Shown: positions 548 to 57,652 of the stretch, in pieces | Layout: every line of letters starts with the position of its first letter | Numbering within the stretch: the first letter of the stretch is position 1 | Virus record (IMG/VR): IMGVR_UViG_3300025138_000014 | Span: 87,330-151,329 of that record | Reading direction: 5' to 3' (one strand) | Origin: a virus | DNA length: 64,000 nucleotides | Notes under the pieces: model-generated | Told to the model about the DNA's origin: nothing | The model's database searches: none | Seen by the model: the letters and a program-made list of their open reading frames with translations, nothing else | Position numbers and translations under genes: made by a program

Positions 548-3043
548 TTGTCTTTTTACACATCAGTTAATCGTTACGGCAACTCTATCTTATATCGTGG
601 ATATAATGACTCTGGAGTTGCTACAGAAACAAAATATAAATTTACCCCTAAACTTTATATTCGATCTCAAGATACAAATACAGAATACAAAGCCCTAGAT
701 GGTACACCTGTAAAAGAAGTCAACTTTCCTAAAATGGCAGAAGCAAAAGAGTTTTGTGAACAGTACAAAGATATTAAAGATTTCAGCGTGTATGGTCAGA
801 CCAATTATATTCAACAGTTTATTACAGATAAGTTTCCCGGCAATATTATATTTAATCCTAAACAAGTTAATGTTGTAAACTTTGACATAGAAGTCGCTTC
901 CGATGAGGGTTTTCCTAGACCAGAAGAAGCATTGTTTCCAGTTATATCTATTGCTCTCAAGTCTAGCAAATCTTCCATATATGAAGTGTGGGGCCTTGGT
1001 GATTACGATCACGAGAAAACAGAATTGAATATGAATGGCGATCTTATTCGTTATAGAAAGTTTGATAGTGAGCAAGCACTTCTTGCCAGCTTCCATAAAT
1101 ATTGGTGTGAGAATAGACCAGATATTGTAACTGGCTGGAACTGTAGATTTTTTGATATACCATATATTATTAATAGATTGTATCGTATTGGTTCTCCAGA
1201 AGCAGTCAAAAGATTGTCTCCCTGGAACTTAGTAAATGAACGCAATACCAAAATCATGGGTAAAGAACAGCAAGGATATGAAATTGTTGGTATTCAACAA
1301 GCAGACTATCTTGAGCTGTTTAAAAAGTTTGGTTACTCTTATGGAACCCAAGAGTCATATGCATTAAATCATGTTGCATTTACTGTTCTTGGCGAGAAGA
1401 AATTATCATATGAAGAACATGGTAGTTTGCATACACTCTATGAAAAAGATCACCAAAAGTTTATTGATTATAACATTAAAGATGTTCAACTTGTTCAACG
1501 CATTGACGATAAGATGGGTCTTATTGAACTGGTACAAACTATGGCTTATCGTGCTGGTGTTAATATATCAGATACATTTGGTACTACGGCGATATGGGAT
1601 TCAATCATATATCGTTCACTAAATAGTCAAAAGATTGTTATCATGCCTATCACAGAAAAACAGAAACTACCTTACCCTGGTGGTTATGTAAAAGATCCAA
1701 AAGTTGGCATGCACGAGTGGGTTGTATCCTTTGACCTTAACTCACTATATCCAAATCTTATTGTACAATATAATATGTCTCCAGAAACAATCGTTGGTGG
1801 TTATCCCCTTGAGAATGGCGTAGAACATTATATGAACTGTGACAAAGTTGTTAGCGAATATGCTGTAGCAGCTAACGGTTCTCAATATAGAAAAGATAAG
1901 CAAGGCATTATCCCTAAAATTATTATTCAGTATTATTCAGAACGTAAAGAAGTCAAGAAGCGCATGTTAAAAGCGCAGAGTGATTATGAGAAGAATAAAA
2001 CCACAGAACTTGAAAGAGAAATCAATACACTTCATAACCAACAGATGGCTATTAAGATTTTGTTAAACAGTCTTTATGGCGCACTCGGTAATCGGTTCTT
2101 TAGATATTTTGATATGAGAATGGCCGAAGGTATTACTCTATCTGGTCAACTTTCTATCCTGTGGGCTGAACGTGCTATCAATGCAGAAATGAATAAAATT
2201 CTAAATACAACGGAGAAAGATTATGTTATTGCTATTGACACTGACTCAGTCTATATTAATTTTGGTCCTCTTATTGCTAAACTGGCGCCAGCGGACCCTG
2301 TTAAAGCACTGGACAAAATATGTAAGGAGCACTTCACTAAAATACTAGCTGACTCTTATGCTAAACTGTTTGATAATATGAATGGTTATGATAATAGAAT
2401 GGTTATGGAGCGTGAAGCAATTGCTGATAAAGCTATCTGGACTGCAAAGAAAAGATATATTTTAAACGTGCATAATAACGAAGGAGTCCAGTACAAAGAA
2501 CCTAAACTCAAGATCATGGGTATTGAAGCTGTTAAATCTTCGACACCTCAGGTTGTTAGAGACAAGTTCAAAGAAATTTTTGATGTTCTAATTAACGGTA
2601 CTGAAGTTACCACTCAGAAATACATAGCAGACTTCAGACGTGAATTCAATTCTCTACCTCCCGAAGCCGTATCATTTCCAAGAGGTGTGACTAATGTTAC
2701 AGATTGGATAGATAGAAAGACCATTTTCAAGAAAGGCTGTCCAATTCATGTTCGTGGTTCTATTCTATACAATAATACGGTCAAAAGTAAAGCAGTGGAC
2801 AAAAGATATGGTTTAATTCAGAATGGTGAGAAGATTAAGTTTGTTTATCTCAAGATGCCAAATCCAATAAAGCAAAATGTTATAGCATTTCCGCAATATC
2901 TGCCTACTGAATTAGCCCTGCATAAATACATTGACTACGATAAAATGTTTGAGAAAACTTTTATTGAACCTATTAAACCTATTCTGGACGCAATCGGATG
3001 GACTGTTGAAGATCAGATGACGCTGGAAGACTTTTTTGGATAA
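548..3043 (+). CDS. 43: T4-like DNA polymerase gp43 (family B)
   Basis: 831 aa replicative DNA polymerase with 3'-5' proofreading. Exonuclease motifs: D113-x-E115, N198 to D203, and Y308-x3-D312. Polymerase motifs: DLNSLYP from D396, K503 with NSLYG at 507-511, and DTDSVY with the catalytic pair D564/D566. The C-terminus LEDFFG is the sliding-clamp (gp45) binding tail, comparable to LDFLFG of T4. The length is near the 898 aa of T4 gp43 but shorter. The start is TTG at 548, preceded by ACGGAG; no in-frame ATG gives a full N-terminus. It lies under its own promoter at 493 and is followed 8 nt later by a phosphatase gene. Confidence 0.98.
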   Translation: MSFYTSVNRYGNSILYRGYNDSGVATETKYKFTPKLYIRSQDTNTEYKALDGTPVKEVNFPKMAEAKEFCEQYKDIKDFSVYGQTNYIQQFITDKFPGNIIFNPKQVNVVNFDIEVASDEGFPRPEEALFPVISIALKSSKSSIYEVWGLGDYDHEKTELNMNGDLIRYRKFDSEQALLASFHKYWCENRPDIVTGWNCRFFDIPYIINRLYRIGSPEAVKRLSPWNLVNERNTKIMGKEQQGYEIVGIQQADYLELFKKFGYSYGTQESYALNHVAFTVLGEKKLSYEEHGSLHTLYEKDHQKFIDYNIKDVQLVQRIDDKMGLIELVQTMAYRAGVNISDTFGTTAIWDSIIYRSLNSQKIVIMPITEKQKLPYPGGYVKDPKVGMHEWVVSFDLNSLYPNLIVQYNMSPETIVGGYPLENGVEHYMNCDKVVSEYAVAANGSQYRKDKQGIIPKIIIQYYSERKEVKKRMLKAQSDYEKNKTTELEREINTLHNQQMAIKILLNSLYGALGNRFFRYFDMRMAEGITLSGQLSILWAERAINAEMNKILNTTEKDYVIAIDTDSVYINFGPLIAKLAPADPVKALDKICKEHFTKILADSYAKLFDNMNGYDNRMVMEREAIADKAIWTAKKRYILNVHNNEGVQYKEPKLKIMGIEAVKSSTPQVVRDKFKEIFDVLINGTEVTTQKYIADFRREFNSLPPEAVSFPRGVTNVTDWIDRKTIFKKGCPIHVRGSILYNNTVKSKAVDKRYGLIQNGEKIKFVYLKMPNPIKQNVIAFPQYLPTELALHKYIDYDKMFEKTFIEPIKPILDAIGWTVEDQMTLEDFFG

Positions 3044-3051
3044 GGAAATAA

Positions 3052-3759
3052 ATGAAACATTATATTTTTGATATTGACGGAACTTTAACTCCAAGCCGTG
3101 GCAGAATTGATCCAGAGTTTGAAACATTTTTTAAAAGTTTTATCAATAAGAATAAAGTGTCTTTAGTTACTGGGTCAGATAGACCAAAAACTTTAGAACA
3201 AATTGGTATTGAAATCTCTGATAGTGTTGATACAATGTATCAATGCTCTGGTAATCACATTTGGAAAAAAGGTAAAGAGGTATCAAGAATAGATTGGCGC
3301 TTACCACATAAAGTGGTTCAATGGCTTTTAATAACTCTTGAGAATAGCAGCTATTCAAAAAGAACCGGTGATCATCTTGAAGAAAGAGTTGGTCTTGCCA
3401 ATTTCTCCATAGTGGGAAGAAAAGCAGATGCACGTCAAAGAAAAGCATATGTAAAATATGATACTAACGTGGGGGAACGTAAGCTAATTGCTTACAGATT
3501 TAATGAAAAATTTGGTAAAAAACTTAAAGCACAGGTTGCTGGAGAAACTGGTATAGATATTATCCCACTTGGTTGTGATAAGTCTCAAATATTAAAACAG
3601 ATACCACTTGATGATACAATAATCTTTTTTGGGGATAAGACTGAACTAGGTGGCAATGACTATGAAATTGCACAAGCTGTGGATAAAAGATTAAACGGAC
3701 ACTTCCATACAGTCACTGAATGGAAACATACATATAGTATATTGAAAGAGGAAATATAA
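3052..3759 (+). CDS. HAD hydrolase, phosphomannomutase-like
   Basis: 235 aa HAD-superfamily protein. The nucleophile motif FDIDGTLT has D7 and D9, and the C-terminal FFGDKTELGGNDYE (D195 region) is the signature of eukaryotic-type phosphomannomutases and related IIB phosphatases. It may act on a sugar phosphate, which would fit the sugar-nucleotide genes nearby, but the cap domain is short and a mutase role is not proven. The TAA stop overlaps the next ATG (TAATG). Confidence 0.85.
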   Translation: MKHYIFDIDGTLTPSRGRIDPEFETFFKSFINKNKVSLVTGSDRPKTLEQIGIEISDSVDTMYQCSGNHIWKKGKEVSRIDWRLPHKVVQWLLITLENSSYSKRTGDHLEERVGLANFSIVGRKADARQRKAYVKYDTNVGERKLIAYRFNEKFGKKLKAQVAGETGIDIIPLGCDKSQILKQIPLDDTIIFFGDKTELGGNDYEIAQAVDKRLNGHFHTVTEWKHTYSILKEEI

Positions 3760-17245: not shown

Positions 17246-17577
17246 TGAAATATGTAATTGATATTGACGGTACTATTTGTAATGAAGTATTTAATAATAA
17301 CGGCACAAAGAATTATGCTCTACATGAGCCTGCAATGGATCGCATTGCAAAGGTAAACAAACTATATGATGCAGGGCATACTATTAAATATATGACAGCC
17401 CGAGGCGCAGTTAGTAAAGTTGATTATTATGATCTAACCAAGAAACAACTGGATAGTTGGGGTGCTAAATACCATGAGTTGAGTGTCGGAGAAAAAGAAC
17501 ATTACGATGTTTGGATTGATGACAAAGCATATTGGAGTGAAAACTTTTTTAGAAAATCTGGAGAAAGCTATGAGTAA
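17245..17577 (+). CDS. small HAD-superfamily phosphatase
   Basis: 110 aa. YVIDIDGTI gives the nucleophile pair and MTARG the second HAD motif, with DVWIDDKAY at the end. Such short HADs occur in capsule gene clusters and phages. ATG 17245 overlaps the aldolase stop (TAATG). Substrate unknown, plausibly a sugar phosphate. Confidence 0.82.
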   Translation: MKYVIDIDGTICNEVFNNNGTKNYALHEPAMDRIAKVNKLYDAGHTIKYMTARGAVSKVDYYDLTKKQLDSWGAKYHELSVGEKEHYDVWIDDKAYWSENFFRKSGESYE

Positions 17578-17884
17578 ATGGATATATGAATGTTGGAATG
17601 CAGTAATGGATTATGAAAAGAATCCCTTGAGTAATATTCCAGATGTTCAGACACGACATATGATTATGCAAGTTTTAGCTTGGATGTGGTGCATTGCATT
17701 TGGATTTATTGTAAGTAATCTATGGGCTGGTGTAATTAGTATGATGGCTCACATTGTATTAATAGGAGCAATAGCAATTACTGTAGCAACATTTGAAACA
17801 GCAAAATCTAATCCACAATTATTTACAAGAAGAAAACGTGTAGATGGTTATAACGGTAGACAAAATAACGGAGAGCACAACTAG
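17570..17884 (+). CDS. two-TM membrane protein
   Basis: 104 aa with two adjacent membrane helices (about residues 32-74) between a short N-terminal part and a basic tail. ATG 17570 is chosen for CTGGAGAA just upstream and its 8-nt overlap with the HAD gene. Unrecognised. Confidence 0.75.
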   Translation: MSKWIYECWNAVMDYEKNPLSNIPDVQTRHMIMQVLAWMWCIAFGFIVSNLWAGVISMMAHIVLIGAIAITVATFETAKSNPQLFTRRKRVDGYNGRQNNGEHN

Positions 17885-43375: not shown

Positions 43376-44434
43376 ATGATTAAAGTTTTAACAATCGTAG
43401 CAGCAGCAATGTTAGCGACAAGCGCATGGGCTGGGGATAAAGTTAAAGTAGGTTTCATTTACGTTGGACCAACTGGAGATCATGGTTGGACTTATCGTCA
43501 TGATATCGGCCGTCAAGATGTAGAAGAACATTTTGGAGATAAAGTAGAAACTTTTTATGTTGAAAGTGTTGCAGAAGGGCCAGACGCAGAAAGAGTGATT
43601 CGTGGTATGGTTCTACAAGGCGCTGATATTATCTTTACAACTTCTTTTGGCTATATGGATGCAACAGCAAAAATGGCTAGAGAATATCCACATGTAAAAT
43701 TTGAACATGCAACTGGATATAAACAATCCGAGAATATGTCTAGTTATGCACTTCGTTTGTATCAAGCACGTCACGTTCAAGGAGTTATTGCAGGTCTTAT
43801 GACTAAATCAGATAAGATTTGTTATATCGGTGCATATCCAATCCCAGAAGTTATCCGTCATATCAACACATATTTTATGGGCGCTCGAAGTGTAAATCCT
43901 GATGTTGATATGGATGTTATTTGGGTAAACACTTGGTATAATCCTGGAAAAGAATCAGATGCAGCTAAAGTTCTAATGTCACAAGGTTGTGATATGGTTG
44001 CACAACATACTGATTCACCTGCTCCTATTCAAGCGGCTGAACAACAAGGTAGATTTGGTTTTGGCCAAGCATCGGATCAAATTAGATTTGCGCCAAAATC
44101 ACAGCTAACTGCAACTATTGATAATTGGTCTCCATACTATATTCGTAAAGTTGGAGCAGTTATTGATGGAACTTGGGAAAGTGAAAACTATTTCGGTGGA
44201 GTAGCAGGAGGTGGTGTTGTTATGGCTCCATTTACAAATATGCCGTTTGCTGTTCGTGCTAAAGCTGCTAATCTTTTACAACGGATTAGTGACGGAGAGT
44301 ATTTTGCCTTTACTGGACCCATTAAAGATCAAGCAGGTGAAATTCGTATCCCAGAAGGTCATATTGCTACAGATATGGAACTAAATACTATGGATTATTA
44401 TGTCGAAGGTATTACGGCAAAGTTTCCTCTATAA
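43376..44434 (+). CDS. BMP/PnrA-type periplasmic substrate-binding protein
   Basis: 352 aa. A Sec signal peptide (residues 1-19, cut at AWA/GD) precedes a type I periplasmic-binding fold: VGFIYVGPTGDHGWTYRHD, IIFTTSFGYMD, YALRLYQARHVQGVIAG. This is the BMP family that delivers nucleosides or related ligands to ABC importers. No lipobox, so it is soluble in the periplasm as in proteobacteria. No permease or ATPase gene is near, so it would have to serve the host transporter. A terminator ends the unit. The -35/-10 match upstream is poor. Confidence 0.93.
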   Translation: MIKVLTIVAAAMLATSAWAGDKVKVGFIYVGPTGDHGWTYRHDIGRQDVEEHFGDKVETFYVESVAEGPDAERVIRGMVLQGADIIFTTSFGYMDATAKMAREYPHVKFEHATGYKQSENMSSYALRLYQARHVQGVIAGLMTKSDKICYIGAYPIPEVIRHINTYFMGARSVNPDVDMDVIWVNTWYNPGKESDAAKVLMSQGCDMVAQHTDSPAPIQAAEQQGRFGFGQASDQIRFAPKSQLTATIDNWSPYYIRKVGAVIDGTWESENYFGGVAGGGVVMAPFTNMPFAVRAKAANLLQRISDGEYFAFTGPIKDQAGEIRIPEGHIATDMELNTMDYYVEGITAKFPL

Positions 44435-44442
44435 AAATATTA

Positions 44443-44467
44443 GGGGGCAGTTAGCTGCCTCCTTTTT
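44443..44467 (+). terminator. Rho-independent terminator
   Basis: GGGGGCAG, loop TTAG, CTGCCTCC and five T, nine nt after the BMP stop. Confidence 0.93.
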
Positions 44468-44492
44468 ACAACATAATGAAAAGAAAATATCT

Positions 44493-45338
44493 ATGATTGA
44501 TAAAATTTATATACCAACTGCCTGTAGAGTTGATAAGCAAATAACATATAATAACTTGCCAAAAGAGTTGCAAGATAAAGTTGTGTTTGTTGTACAAGAG
44601 TGGGAAAGAGATCAGTATACACTTGATGCCGAGTACCTGGTACTTCCACCAGAGATTACACTTACTTCTAAAAATGCTTTGTCACGTACTCGTAAGATTA
44701 TCTATGAGACTGCTAAAGATACCCGTTATGCAATGCTAGATGATGATATGCATTTCCAACGTAGGAATTCAAAGTATTGGAACGGTGTTTCTAATATGGA
44801 GAAATCATGCCAGAAATGTACTGATGATGATATTATTGAAATGTTTGAATTATTTGATAGTTGGTTAGATCAAGGTTTTACTTTTTGTGGTCCAGCTCAA
44901 AAGAATAATCCACCCACAGGAAATTTATACCAAGATAATTGTTCTATGTCTGGCTTCTATGTATTTAATGGATATGATTGGAAAGACATAATTGATGATC
45001 TAAAGGTAGATCAAGTAAGAGTTGCAGAGGATGTTCTACTTATCATAGGACTATTAAACCGTGGGTATTCTAATCGTACAAGCCAAGAGTTTATTCAAAG
45101 CAATCAAAGTTATGCTTCTAAGTCGGAGAAATCAGTCCTTTGGGATGAAACCGAAGTTGCTGAAGTCAATGAGAATCATATTTTTATTAATAGTATGTAC
45201 CCAAAATATTTTAAAATTTTACGTGATGAAAACGGTGATAGGATACCAGGCGGCTTCAGAGACGTTGGTAAAACTAAAATTAGCTGGAGTCAAGCCTATA
45301 AGGACTCCCAACTCAATTCTTTATCGGAGTTCTTTTAA
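44493..45338 (+). CDS. TAGT-like glycosyltransferase, second copy
   Basis: 281 aa. IYIPTACRVD, ALSRTRKIIY and AMLDDDMHF align in order with the N-terminal half of the glycosyltransferase at 4106 (IYIISKGRAD, SIPARNFVW, WIMDDN). The C-terminus ends SLSEFF, like the clamp-binding tails of gp43 (LEDFFG) and of the protein at 51644 (LENFFG). T4 alpha-glucosyltransferase is reported to contact the gp45 clamp, so a DNA-modifying role is an attractive inference. Confidence 0.72.
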   Translation: MIDKIYIPTACRVDKQITYNNLPKELQDKVVFVVQEWERDQYTLDAEYLVLPPEITLTSKNALSRTRKIIYETAKDTRYAMLDDDMHFQRRNSKYWNGVSNMEKSCQKCTDDDIIEMFELFDSWLDQGFTFCGPAQKNNPPTGNLYQDNCSMSGFYVFNGYDWKDIIDDLKVDQVRVAEDVLLIIGLLNRGYSNRTSQEFIQSNQSYASKSEKSVLWDETEVAEVNENHIFINSMYPKYFKILRDENGDRIPGGFRDVGKTKISWSQAYKDSQLNSLSEFF

Positions 45339-45813: not shown

Positions 45814-46374
45814 ATGCACAAGCTATTGATATTGATATTATTTTTATTACCAACATTTGCTATGTCACAAACAGTTGTAAACACAACAACTGACAGTAAC
45901 AGCGAAGTAGATTCGAAGGGAAGAACAATTGTTATTTCACCTCCGCCCTCAGCTATATCTCCGGGCGTTAGTGGTAATAGCCAAGACTTATGTACAGTTG
46001 GTATATCCGGTGCTGTACAAACCCAAATTTTAGGTATCTCCACTGGTGAGACCATAAGAGATGCTAATTGTGAAAGACTAAAAATATCCAAAACATTATA
46101 TGATTTCGGTATGAAAGTTGCCGCGGTATCAGTATTGTGTCAAGATAGACGAGTACATGATGCTATGGGAATGGCTGGGACTCCATGCCCTTTCAACGGA
46201 AAGATCGGAGAGGACGCTGCTGCCAGCTGGAAACTACCATCTGGTAAGAAGAAAGTTCCTCCACATTTAGTATTGGAGACAAAGAAAGATGTTCAAAAGA
46301 GACAGTGGGAACAGAATAAATCTGTTATCGGCGGTGCTCTGTTGTTTATTATTATGCTTGCCGCAGGCGGCTAA
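45814..46374 (+). CDS. exported conserved protein of T4-like marine phages
   Basis: 186 aa with signal peptide (residues 1-18, AMSQ). SPPPSAISPG, then GISGAVQTQILGIS, NCERLKISKTLYDFGMKVAA and AGTPCPFNGKIG match a family conserved in cyanophages. A C-terminal membrane helix ends the protein. Late promoter box upstream. Possibly a virion or envelope component. Confidence 0.82.
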   Translation: MHKLLILILFLLPTFAMSQTVVNTTTDSNSEVDSKGRTIVISPPPSAISPGVSGNSQDLCTVGISGAVQTQILGISTGETIRDANCERLKISKTLYDFGMKVAAVSVLCQDRRVHDAMGMAGTPCPFNGKIGEDAAASWKLPSGKKKVPPHLVLETKKDVQKRQWEQNKSVIGGALLFIIMLAAGG

Positions 46375-52140: not shown

Positions 52141-52392
52141 ATGGCATATTGGACTCACGCAGAAAATCAAGTCGGTGTATTTACCGAGTGCGAAACTGGT
52201 AACCACTTCGAGTTTAGCCCGAACAACGACGGCAATTTCTTCGGTAATGACTTTGCTCATATCGTATGGGTTCTCAACGGTTACCGATATGCCAACGTAA
52301 AGAAAACAGTTCTTGAAATCTGCATCGACGAAGATGAGGATGGTCCAGTTGTACAAAAGTGGCATATAAGGAATAAAAGAGATTATAAATGA
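52141..52392 (+). CDS. small conserved protein, unknown
   Basis: 83 aa, acidic, Asn/Phe-rich first half; AGGAGACC ribosome site. Its stop overlaps the PEP carboxykinase start (ATGA), so the two share one message. Confidence 0.75.
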   Translation: MAYWTHAENQVGVFTECETGNHFEFSPNNDGNFFGNDFAHIVWVLNGYRYANVKKTVLEICIDEDEDGPVVQKWHIRNKRDYK

Positions 52393-53591
52393 ATATTAGT
52401 ATTACCACCCATCCCACAGGCAGAAGTCCAGAAAACAAATGGTTCTTTGGAGAACGGACTTCAGCTTTGGACCTTACTCGTCCAAAGTATAATAAGATAG
52501 GCAGAGAACAAGACTTTCAATGGTTCTATGCGCAAATGCAAGATGTAGATTACGAACATAATCTTGTGTTCTATACTTGTGGGAAGTGTTTTAGAGTAGA
52601 AACAACTGACGTCAGGCATGCACAGTTCGTGCGCAATATGTTTACTGTAGTTGATAATCCACATGATCATTGTGCTGACTGGGTGATATTTCATAGCCCT
52701 ACATCATCGACAGAGCCTAAGATATATGTACACTTAGATGATCACGTAATGCTTATTGCAGGTACAACATTCCTAGGCGAGATTAAAAAGGGCGTGTTTG
52801 GTATTCTAAGTTTTGAACTACCTACACTAGACGCACTGCCTATGCACTGTAGTGCATTTACATATCAACATAATGGCGGCCCTAAAACCAATCTAATGTT
52901 TGGACTTAGCGGCACAGGCAAGACTACACTAAGTAGTGATCCAGAGTATAGGCTTATCAGCGATGATGAAGTTGCTTGGACGTCGGATAGTGTACAGATG
53001 ATTGAAACGGGATGTTATGCAAAGAGTGAAGGACTTAGTGTAGAGACACATCCTACTATTTTTAATGCGGTTGAGTTGGCCAGAAGCCAAGATAGATTAG
53101 TTGAAGAGAATCCTGGTGCTTCTAATGCTAGATTAAGTTATCCACTGAGTACAGTTGAAAATGCATATGATTATGATGATAACCTAAGACACCCTCATAA
53201 CATTTTCTTTCTCACGATGGACGCTAAAGGTTTATTTCCACCAGTGAGTAAAATTACTGGAGAAACCATAAAGCGGTTCTTTGAAACGGGCTACACTAGC
53301 CAGATGCCGGGTACTGAAGCAGGTGATAATCAGATTAAACCACTGTTCAGTCCATGCTATGGCTCTCCATTTATGCCTCTTGACATAAGTGTTTATAGTG
53401 ATATGCTTATGGAGATGATTAGAATACATAAAGTAAATGTTTACTTAATAAACACAGGTATGGATAGTGATGGAGTGCGTTATTCACTAGACTTTACCAG
53501 GGAATGTGTTAAACTAGCAATACAGAAAGGCGCACCTGATAATAGTGATGTCTGCTTAAACATATTAGAGGAACTGATCAATGGATCTTAA
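52389..53591 (+). CDS. pckA: ATP-type PEP carboxykinase-like enzyme
   Basis: 400 aa, homologous along its length to ATP-dependent PEP carboxykinase, which converts oxaloacetate and ATP to phosphoenolpyruvate. Landmarks: TGRSP (R12), LIAGTTFLGEIKKGVF (K133/K134), LPMHCSA (H153), Walker A GLSGTGKT at 172-179, ISDDE (D192/D193) where the family has GDDEHGW, GCYAK, and NARLSYP (R248 at the position of the nucleotide-contact Arg). Cellular enzymes have about 530 aa; this one is shorter at the N-terminus and in loops but keeps the active-site set. GDDEHGW is changed to SDDEVAW, so altered substrate use is possible. Confidence 0.92.
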   Translation: MNISITTHPTGRSPENKWFFGERTSALDLTRPKYNKIGREQDFQWFYAQMQDVDYEHNLVFYTCGKCFRVETTDVRHAQFVRNMFTVVDNPHDHCADWVIFHSPTSSTEPKIYVHLDDHVMLIAGTTFLGEIKKGVFGILSFELPTLDALPMHCSAFTYQHNGGPKTNLMFGLSGTGKTTLSSDPEYRLISDDEVAWTSDSVQMIETGCYAKSEGLSVETHPTIFNAVELARSQDRLVEENPGASNARLSYPLSTVENAYDYDDNLRHPHNIFFLTMDAKGLFPPVSKITGETIKRFFETGYTSQMPGTEAGDNQIKPLFSPCYGSPFMPLDISVYSDMLMEMIRIHKVNVYLINTGMDSDGVRYSLDFTRECVKLAIQKGAPDNSDVCLNILEELINGS

Positions 53592-55215: not shown

Positions 55216-55292
55216 GGTTCCTTAGCTCAGCAGGATAGAGCAAGTGCCTTCTAAGCACTAGGTCAGAGGTTCGAATCCTCTAGGGACTACCA
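55216..55292 (+). tRNA. tRNA-Arg (anticodon UCU)
   Basis: 77 nt with encoded CCA. Acceptor GGTTCCT/AGGGACT (two GU pairs), D arm GCTC/GAGC, anticodon stem AGTGC/GCACT with loop CTTCTAA (anticodon TCT), T arm AGAGG/CCTCT with loop TTCGAAT. Reads AGA codons, which suits an AT-rich phage in a host that may use AGA rarely. Confidence 0.96.
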
Positions 55293-55741: not shown

Positions 55742-55948
55742 ATGGTTCATGCTTTTCTGTTAATGCTTTGGCTAGATGATGAGTTAGTTTCCAATAATAT
55801 GTATTTCTTTGATGTTAAACGGTGCAATTATTTTGCTAAAGAATTAGAAAACCAATATGGTAATAGTAAGAAATATAATCAACATAATACGGTTATATAT
55901 TGCTTACCAAAACTGGTTAACTCTAAAGAGGTTACGATTTATCCATGA
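55742..55948 (+). CDS. small conserved phage protein
   Basis: 68 aa; HAFLLMLWLDDELVSNNMYFF at the N-terminus recurs in T4-like marine phages. Hydrophobic start may be a membrane helix or buried strand. Behind a late promoter box; overlaps the next start by 4 nt. Confidence 0.73.
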   Translation: MVHAFLLMLWLDDELVSNNMYFFDVKRCNYFAKELENQYGNSKKYNQHNTVIYCLPKLVNSKEVTIYP

Positions 55949-56235
55949 AACTACCACTAACTGTTACAGATGACGCCAGAGAATATTTGGCAAGCGTAGG
56001 CAAACCTAATGTGTCACTAGCTGTAAAAGGCGGTGGCTGTGCTGGTTTTCAATACGAATGGGGTGTAACAGATAAAGACCCCACAGTTGATAATTTATGG
56101 CTTGATCCAATGGCCGAGATGTTTGTCTTTGGTTGTACAGTAGATTATGTAAAGGAACTAGGTGGTTCCTATCTAAAAGTAATCAATCCAAACTCAACAG
56201 CAAACTGTGGCTGTGGAGAAAGTTTTGGAGTTTAA
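55945..56235 (+). CDS. IscA/HesB-like A-type Fe-S carrier
   Basis: 96 aa. The three cluster cysteines are at C32 (GGGCAGF), C88 and C90 (NCGCGESF), the complete A-type carrier signature. These proteins deliver Fe-S clusters. Marine phages carry similar genes; here it sits after a late promoter, so it may serve late-made Fe-S proteins or tail assembly. Confidence 0.92.
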   Translation: MKLPLTVTDDAREYLASVGKPNVSLAVKGGGCAGFQYEWGVTDKDPTVDNLWLDPMAEMFVFGCTVDYVKELGGSYLKVINPNSTANCGCGESFGV

Positions 56236-56247
56236 AGGGAGATTAAC

Positions 56248-56460
56248 ATGGCTTGGGTAAACATTACTAATAATACTGGATACCAATACAATAACGCACC
56301 AACAGAACCAGGAGCCACTACGGCTGCTCATAAACTTTGGTCACTAGGAACATCTGGTATCCGTACAAACGGTAGTAGTAAGGTTTATACAAACGTGCGT
56401 AAAGCTGGGACAACAAAAGATATTGGTGAAATGAGCAAAACCTTTTGGGATAACGGCTAA
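56248..56460 (+). CDS. small late protein (MAWVN family)
   Basis: 70 aa; MAWVNITNNTGYQY and the end MSKTFWDNG match short proteins in T4-like cyanophages, probably virion-associated. Ends two nt before the tmRNA acceptor piece. Confidence 0.75.
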   Translation: MAWVNITNNTGYQYNNAPTEPGATTAAHKLWSLGTSGIRTNGSSKVYTNVRKAGTTKDIGEMSKTFWDNG

Positions 56461-56461
56461 A

Positions 56462-56764
56462 TAAGACTGTAACGTTGAAGCGATTTGACGACTGAACTGG
56501 ACCTGGGGGCGGTACCCAGCAGCTCCACCATAAGGGCACCAAGATCAGCTTGGTACTCGATGCATAGAGAACGCCTCCACTGGTGTCCTTTTGATGGGGC
56601 TGAAATAGGATCGACAGGCAGGATAGATGAGTGGAGTTACCCCGATGTAAGCTGGGTGAACGCGAACAAAACTACAAGTGCAAACACTAACAGTGCACCT
56701 TCTGATTACGCCCTAGCGGCCTAATTAAGGGGGTTGGTGACTTACCTAGCAACAGAAAAGTCAC
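56462..56764 (+). ncRNA. ssrA: circularly permuted two-piece tmRNA
   Basis: Trans-translation RNA that rescues stalled ribosomes and tags their products. The acceptor piece comes first: T arm CTGGG/CCCAG with loop GGCGGTA (56503-56519), acceptor strand CAGCTCC, A, CCA ending 56530. A roughly 65-nt intervening loop follows, in which AAGGGCACCA pairs with TGGTGTCCTT. Then the coding piece begins GGGGCTG at 56596, pairing with all seven acceptor bases, and continues AAATAGGATCGAC. The tag frame from GCA at 56680 reads ANTNSAPSDYALAA, stop 56722-56724, followed by a GTGACTT/AAGTCAC hairpin. This permuted layout and T loop are those of alphaproteobacteria. Outer ends are approximate. Confidence 0.95.
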
Positions 56765-56783
56765 GCTAATAACGGAGATAAAG

Positions 56784-57188
56784 ATGCTATCATTTAAGAA
56801 CTATCTGGCTGAAGATACAAGCTGTGATCTAATAGGTCTACAGAAGATTAAGGCTTTTGAGAAGTTTGTCGATAAGATGTTTAAGAGGTATGATATTGAC
56901 TTCAACTTCACGAGACATTTTGGAGACCGTATGAGTGATAAGAGGAACACACCTTGTATCACCATGAAAGAGTTAGCCAATTTTATCCAAAAGATATATA
57001 AGAATGCAGGCAAATCACTCAAAGCTGAGAAGGGTGCCGAAGCAGTTATTAAAGATATGCAGTCAGACTTAAACATACCTATTGCGGTTAAATACGATCA
57101 ACGTAAAGATGAGTTTGATGTAGTAATGAAAACAATAATGCGTAAGAAGAATTTTAAAACCCCTAACAAATTAATTACTTACAAATAA
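56784..57188 (+). CDS. conserved phage protein with capsid-targeting-like N-terminus
   Basis: 134 aa. MLSFKNYLAEDT fits the T4 capsid-targeting pattern with an LAE cut site. The body (FEKFVDKMFKRYDIDFNF and AEAVIKDMQSDLN) matches a family conserved in cyanophages. AACGGAG ribosome site just after the tmRNA. Confidence 0.8.
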   Translation: MLSFKNYLAEDTSCDLIGLQKIKAFEKFVDKMFKRYDIDFNFTRHFGDRMSDKRNTPCITMKELANFIQKIYKNAGKSLKAEKGAEAVIKDMQSDLNIPIAVKYDQRKDEFDVVMKTIMRKKNFKTPNKLITYK

Positions 57189-57199
57189 AGGAGCCCAAT

Positions 57200-57652
57200 A
57201 TGGGATTTAAACTATCAAGCAGATCATTAGGCAAACTTGAAGGAGTTAATGACCAGATGATTGCTGTAGTGCATGGTGCAATTAAAGCAACAAAGATTGA
57301 TTTTGGTGTGACATATGGTATGCGTACAGTGGAAGAGCAAGAGAAGTTAGTAGCAGCTGGTCGTAGTCAGACCATGAAATCAAAGCACCTTACTGGGCAT
57401 GCGGTTGATCTTATGGCTTATGTAGATGGTAAAGGCTGTTGGGAATTAAACGTGTATGATGATTTAGCTGATGCTATGGCTGAATCTGCACGAGCAGAAG
57501 GTGTTGCCGTTAAGTGGGGAGCAGCTTGGAGTGAGGGTGATATTAGAGATTATTCTGGTACTGCCGAAGATGCCATGATGGCTTATATTGATTTGAGAAG
57601 GAGTCAAGGACGGAGACCATTCATTGATGGGCCGCACTTTGAACTAATGTAA
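57200..57652 (+). CDS. M15-family peptidase endolysin
   Basis: 150 aa. SKHLTGHAVDL supplies the zinc His and Asp, DGPHFEL the second His, as in L-Ala-D-Glu/D-Ala-D-Ala peptidase endolysins of T5 type. It cuts peptidoglycan cross-links at lysis. There is no signal peptide, so a holin is needed. Confidence 0.92.
   Translation: MGFKLSSRSLGKLEGVNDQMIAVVHGAIKATKIDFGVTYGMRTVEEQEKLVAAGRSQTMKSKHLTGHAVDLMAYVDGKGCWELNVYDDLADAMAESARAEGVAVKWGAAWSEGDIRDYSGTAEDAMMAYIDLRRSQGRRPFIDGPHFELM

Follow-up and report, generated by a model that had tools for sequence, protein, structure and literature searches.

The two-piece tmRNA was first demonstrated in Caulobacter. Virus-borne tmRNA genes are also carried by mycobacteriophages (Wildcat, Bxz1) and by Streptomyces phages, which have other hosts and the standard one-piece gene order. 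In mycobacteriophage Wildcat the tmRNA gene is the highest-expressed lytic gene (PMC7474061), a precedent for expression. A published marine phage with a two-piece tmRNA is Melnitz (2022), and a count over the phage genomes available in January 2021 gave 53 two-piece forms, 50 of which came from marine or aquatic samples (PMC9004378). Amino-acid recycling was proposed for the Melnitz tmRNA, which was also read partly as a sign of a host switch from SAR11 to OM43 (PMC9004378). Phage tmRNAs are known, yet almost untested, and the gene described here is a new member of the phage two-piece forms.

The window, i.e., the whole stretch of 64,000 nucleotides that was analysed, belongs to a 151,329-base IMG/VR virus contig (IMGVR_UViG_3300025138_000014, positions 87,330 to 151,329). 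The DNA polymerase, DnaB-type helicase and ribonucleotide reductase of this record are all phage-type. Judged by its DNA polymerase, which is nearest to that of Phage C48C1 (59%, classified in Kyanoviridae) and then to those of cyanophages, the virus is T4-like.

A cmscan search of the window returned RF04321 (tmRNA_permuted) at 56469-56724 (+) with 106.7 bits (E 8e-20, curated cut-off 47 bits), and this match is complete, covering model positions 1-213. RF01849 (alpha_tmRNA) likewise gave a complete match at 56441-56767 with 87.7 bits (E 2e-22, cut-off 50 bits), and ARAGORN predicted a permuted tmRNA at 56438-56815 with the tag ANTNSAPSDYALAA at 56680-56724. The initial annotation, made from the letters alone, had proposed a permuted two-piece tmRNA of alphaproteobacterial type on a phage. 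Both models, ARAGORN and the virus record bear this out, the alpha_tmRNA score lies above its cut-off and so does not refute it, the acceptor strand, CCA, seven acceptor pairs, T arm and closing stem of the intervening loop lie in the sequence where they had been placed, and ARAGORN gives the same tag. The window thus contains a permuted two-piece tmRNA that is carried by a phage and whose degron-like tag is intact; "alphaproteobacterial type" names the RNA family and not the host. Its parts and neighbours are the following:

55945-56235, plus strand: Fe-S carrier gene upstream of the tmRNA, in a compact same-strand run
ending at 56460, plus strand: 70-aa ORF directly upstream of the tmRNA
56469-56530, plus strand: acceptor piece (RF04321 alignment, sequence); the 5' end is approximate, from the model match, and the 3' end is the encoded CCA
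56503-56519, plus strand: T arm CTGGG-GGCGGTA-CCCAG (sequence, RF04321; stem covariation in viruses)
56520-56530, plus strand: acceptor 3' strand CAGCTCC (56520-56526), discriminator A (56527) and CCA (56528-56530) (sequence, ARAGORN)
56531-56595, plus strand: intervening segment of 65 bases, predicted to be removed (sequence, fold)
56532-56541 with 56581-56590, plus strand: closing stem of the intervening segment, AAGGGCACCA with TGGTGTCCTT, 10 pairs including one G-U (sequence, fold)
56596-56764, plus strand: coding piece (sequence, RF04321); the 3' end is approximate
56596-56602, plus strand: acceptor 5' strand GGGGCTG, forming seven acceptor pairs with a G3-U70 wobble (sequence)
56680-56724, plus strand: tag reading frame ANTNSAPSDYALAA and stop TAA (ARAGORN; selection on viral tags)
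56737-56764, plus strand: 3' hairpin with a conserved GCAACAGAA motif (covariance model, comparison of relatives)
from 56784, plus strand: 134-aa ORF directly downstream of the tmRNA

The acceptor piece lies upstream of the coding piece in the gene according to RF04321 and ARAGORN. The tRNA-like domain has a 7-pair acceptor stem (56520-56530 with 56596-56602), the G3-U70 pair and an encoded CCA, and the tag combines an alanine resume codon with a hydrophobic -LAA end before the stop. The folding energy of the region is unremarkable (z -1.46) and was dropped as support; the case therefore rests on the covariance model and on covariation among relatives.

The gene resembles the RF04321 and RF01849 families in gene order, acceptor pairing, T-loop type, resume-codon context and the CAACAGAA hairpin, as well as in the full model match. 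Its T-arm loop is of the type commonest among alphaproteobacterial two-piece tmRNAs, and the GCAACAGAA motif of the 3' hairpin occurs in 117/132 viral and 62/64 host genes. However, the window gene has C-G and U-A at pairs 5:68 and 6:67, where the majority of hosts have G-C and C-G. In addition, the intervening segment has 65 bases against a host median of 31, the tag has 14 aa and the gene is phage-borne. Like the window gene, that of Methylophilales phage Melnitz is a permuted tmRNA from a large marine phage of the T4-like kind; the two fall on the same side of the tree, and both have a 14-aa tag ending in YALAA (ANDNYVPVDYALAA in Melnitz). Melnitz differs in its acceptor (GGGGGCG), in its tmRNA neighbourhood and in a reported glutamine riboswitch (PMC9004378), none being detected in the window at Rfam cut-offs. 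Permuted tmRNAs are also present in the ~150-kb phages DSS3_MAL1, RcXuper and vB_RpoS-V10, two of which have recorded Rhodobacterales hosts; ssrA is annotated in DSS3_MAL1 only, the copies of the other two being unannotated. These three differ from the window gene by the acceptor GGGGCCG, by tags ending in MEMAIAA or MEMRLAA, by a separate tree branch and by an ssrA that adjoins tRNA genes.

Evidence of function was drawn from relatives. The 20-base start of the coding piece, GGGGCTGAAATAGGATCGAC, occurs in at least 119 viral contigs, and as this set is itself selected on the acceptor strand, the acceptor statistics were taken from a covariance-model set and a separate T-arm scan. The covariance-model set holds 15 distinct tmRNAs on contigs picked mostly by homologues of the PEP carboxykinase (PEPCK) homologue or of the downstream ORF, and is largely unselected on tmRNA sequence (the 26 records searched include two picked by the T-arm scan and one by the 20-mer scan). 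G3-U70 is present in 15/15 of these relatives, and a G-U at 3:70 in 130/132 viral genes. Each of the pairs 4:69, 5:68, 6:67 and 7:66 occurs in two to four Watson-Crick types among the 15 relatives, with bases changed on both sides, and none is broken. The T-stem pairs 49-51 are highly variable in type and paired in 99-100% of the 132 viral genes. For 65 viral tags of 14 aa a pN/pS of 0.385 was obtained; the last two alanines and N4 are invariant, with codons that vary synonymously. The viral tag, judged by these codon patterns, evolves under purifying selection. In four other viral permuted tmRNAs (L257, L276, L307 and L274) the predicted tags are unusually long at 22-25 aa, e.g., ANTKALGFADLTVGMSELRLAA.

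The tmRNA is present in 10/11 related contigs with a length of 100 kb or more, which had been chosen by homologues of PEPCK or of the downstream ORF without regard to the tmRNA; such counts across relatives are of sequences and not of independent events. Its neighbours vary by genome: it follows DUF3310 genes in some, precedes homologues of 45814-46374 or of 17507-17884 in others, or lies elsewhere. Since the gene moves between sites, is retained and stays intact, it is probably selected for, as far as genome comparison tells. The isolate with the closest DNA polymerase, Phage C48C1, lacks a tmRNA, and the gene is therefore dispensable in some related phages.

The initial annotation had also held that the tmRNA identifies the host lineage. 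The comparison does not bear this out: 129 of 130 alphaproteobacterial rows are separated from the viral genes, and none of the tags is common to the 94 viral and 89 host tags compared. In the tree of 263 rows (133 viral, 130 host) the label changes 4 times, compared with ~88 in shuffles; this tree is unrooted, has many weak branches and is based on a 161-column alignment, its host rows are alphaproteobacteria only, and fragments of bacterial DNA may be among the viral contigs. Constraining 129 hosts together, i.e., without the second copy of Labrenzia, gave a likelihood that beats the free search (p-AU 0.911). Base composition is disfavoured as the cause of the split because 27 low-GC host genes fall among the grouped host rows. 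The nearest rows of the window gene are all viral (18 rows, SH-aLRT 97), and Melnitz, whose host is not alphaproteobacterial, sits within the viral set. Tags of 13-14 aa are found in 100/132 viral genes against 15/136 host genes, host tags being mostly 10-12 aa long. No recent descent from a chromosomal alphaproteobacterial lineage was seen among the sampled hosts in this unrooted tree. By sequence comparison, the window gene is from a lineage seen in viruses and is not recently derived from the sampled chromosomes, and host identification by the tmRNA is not supported.

The split could alternatively reflect unsampled hosts, the true donor (e.g., marine Rhodobacterales or SAR116) having this type on its chromosome. 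A Roseobacter 16S probe for Rhodobacterales matched 0/279 genomes, so that coverage of the likely hosts is unproven. A permuted tmRNA is present in 270/289 alphaproteobacterial genomes, and the 20-base signature was found in just 2/385. Among 84,980 species genomes its 22-base version turned up in no more than two contigs, namely the second Labrenzia copy and a contig of a "Bacteroidetes" MAG (L127). These signature counts speak against an unsampled donor, which we regard as unlikely. L127 was rejected as a genuine "Bacteroidetes" copy: its tag is identical to that of the viral contig L096 and it is probably a misplaced viral contig. The second permuted ssrA of Labrenzia sp. OB1 lies near 2770-3136 (-) on a 19.5-kb contig (L564), has the unusual tag VADNDNDWVAAKAVA and clusters with roseophage tmRNAs (SH-aLRT 93). 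It was not accepted as a prophage gene, as it adjoins secretion-system-like genes and a transposase with no recognisable prophage.

That viral two-piece tmRNAs are a set apart with a longer tag seems less appreciated within the literature searched. It is an even bet whether the two-piece tmRNA of marine phages forms a long-lived viral lineage that passes from phage to phage independently of host chromosomes, moves between genome sites and has evolved a longer degradation tag of its own. If it does, the SAR11-to-OM43 switch could reflect gene flow between phages instead; the place of Melnitz within the viral set already weakens its tmRNA as a sign of that switch. From the comparison it seems that a ribosome-rescue RNA with a tag typical of viruses is close to standard equipment in marine T4-like phages, and that such viral RNAs should not serve for naming hosts. 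It raises the questions of whether a phage needs its own tmRNA despite the host copy and what the viral tag does.

For the gene itself our main reading, at a probability of about 0.78, is a working phage two-piece tmRNA from a viral lineage that would serve host-dependent ribosome rescue during infection. Only 8 bases separate the upstream ORF from the RF04321 match, and no sigma-70 or T4-late promoter match of its own was found immediately upstream, counts not being above chance. Given the short gap and the absence of a convincing promoter, the RNA is likely produced by co-transcription with the closely packed neighbouring genes and subsequent processing. Host RNase P would then cut before 56596, and the encoded CCA that ends at 56530 would be exposed by 3' processing. 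With the 65-base intervening segment lost, the two pieces would be held together by the acceptor stem and helix 2. G3-U70 is the alanine identity pair, through which host alanyl-tRNA synthetase may charge the RNA. Host SmpB and EF-Tu would bring it to ribosomes that have stalled on broken mRNA, where translation would restart at GCA 56680, append ANTNSAPSDYALAA and terminate, releasing the ribosome. The LAA end should route the tagged protein to host ClpXP. Acceptance of the phage RNA by these host factors is expected from general knowledge of trans-translation. The benefit to the phage is most likely a steady supply of ribosomes while phage and host nucleases break mRNA. Neither this record nor 17 other viral records yielded an smpB gene, a provisional result as the metagenome contig may be incomplete. 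The host would have to supply SmpB together with AlaRS, EF-Tu, RNase P and ClpXP.

A different emphasis would be that the tmRNA mainly tags and destroys proteins, either host proteins for their amino acids or chosen targets, and does not primarily free ribosomes. The tag is long, selected, ends in YALAA and is unlike every sampled host tag; clpP genes occur in 4/14 viral records searched, and amino-acid recycling has been put forward for Melnitz (PMC9004378). However, stalled ribosomes are what tmRNA acts on, and no means is known by which it could choose full-length host proteins; this record yielded no clpP, and the difference in tags may be drift within a degron. We consider this improbable and ribosome rescue remains the preferred reading. 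Less probable still is a decoy that titrates SmpB and blocks host trans-translation, like the tmRNA of mycobacteriophage DS6A, which consists of the tRNA domain only: such a domain inhibits tmRNA in E. coli (PMC11915505; PMC4131195) and no smpB of its own was found in the phage record, but the mRNA-like half is complete and the tag under selection, and a decoy would need no tag. Recent passive capture of a host gene without selected function, e.g., by imprecise excision at ssrA, a frequent integration site, would reveal the host and has equally little to commend it, given the separation from 129/130 host rows, the covarying stems and conserved tag, and the retention in 10/11 large related contigs.

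No defence-system families were found among the neighbouring ORFs. A tRNA-Arg(TCT) gene lies at 55216-55292 (+), 1.2 kb upstream of the tmRNA, and Melnitz has two tRNA-Arg(TCT) genes (PMC9004378). At 57200-57652 (+) an M15-type endolysin is encoded with 81% identity to the endolysin of Roseobacter phage CRP-13. By this similarity it gives the strongest single clue to a Roseobacter-group host and is a better lead than the tmRNA, yet it is one mobile gene.

The PEPCK homologue at 52389-53591 (+) is a 400-aa protein of the ATP type (PF01293, E 3e-89). At least 70 viral contigs encode homologues with 59-100% identity, while matches in the phage-record collection reach ~35% identity only and resemble bacterial DNA. 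Compared with Thermus PEPCK (1j3b) it keeps TGR, EIKK, PMH, GLSGTGKTTLS, DDE and the arginine of NxRxSYP, and its C-terminal part is missing. By homology it is a possible carbon-metabolism gene of the phage. Further upstream, the phage encodes a PnrA/Bmp-type ABC transporter substrate-binding protein at 43376-44434 (+) (PF02608, E 1e-47) and a TET-associated glycosyltransferase domain (PF20691) at 44400-45338 (+), the latter hinting at hypermodified phage DNA.
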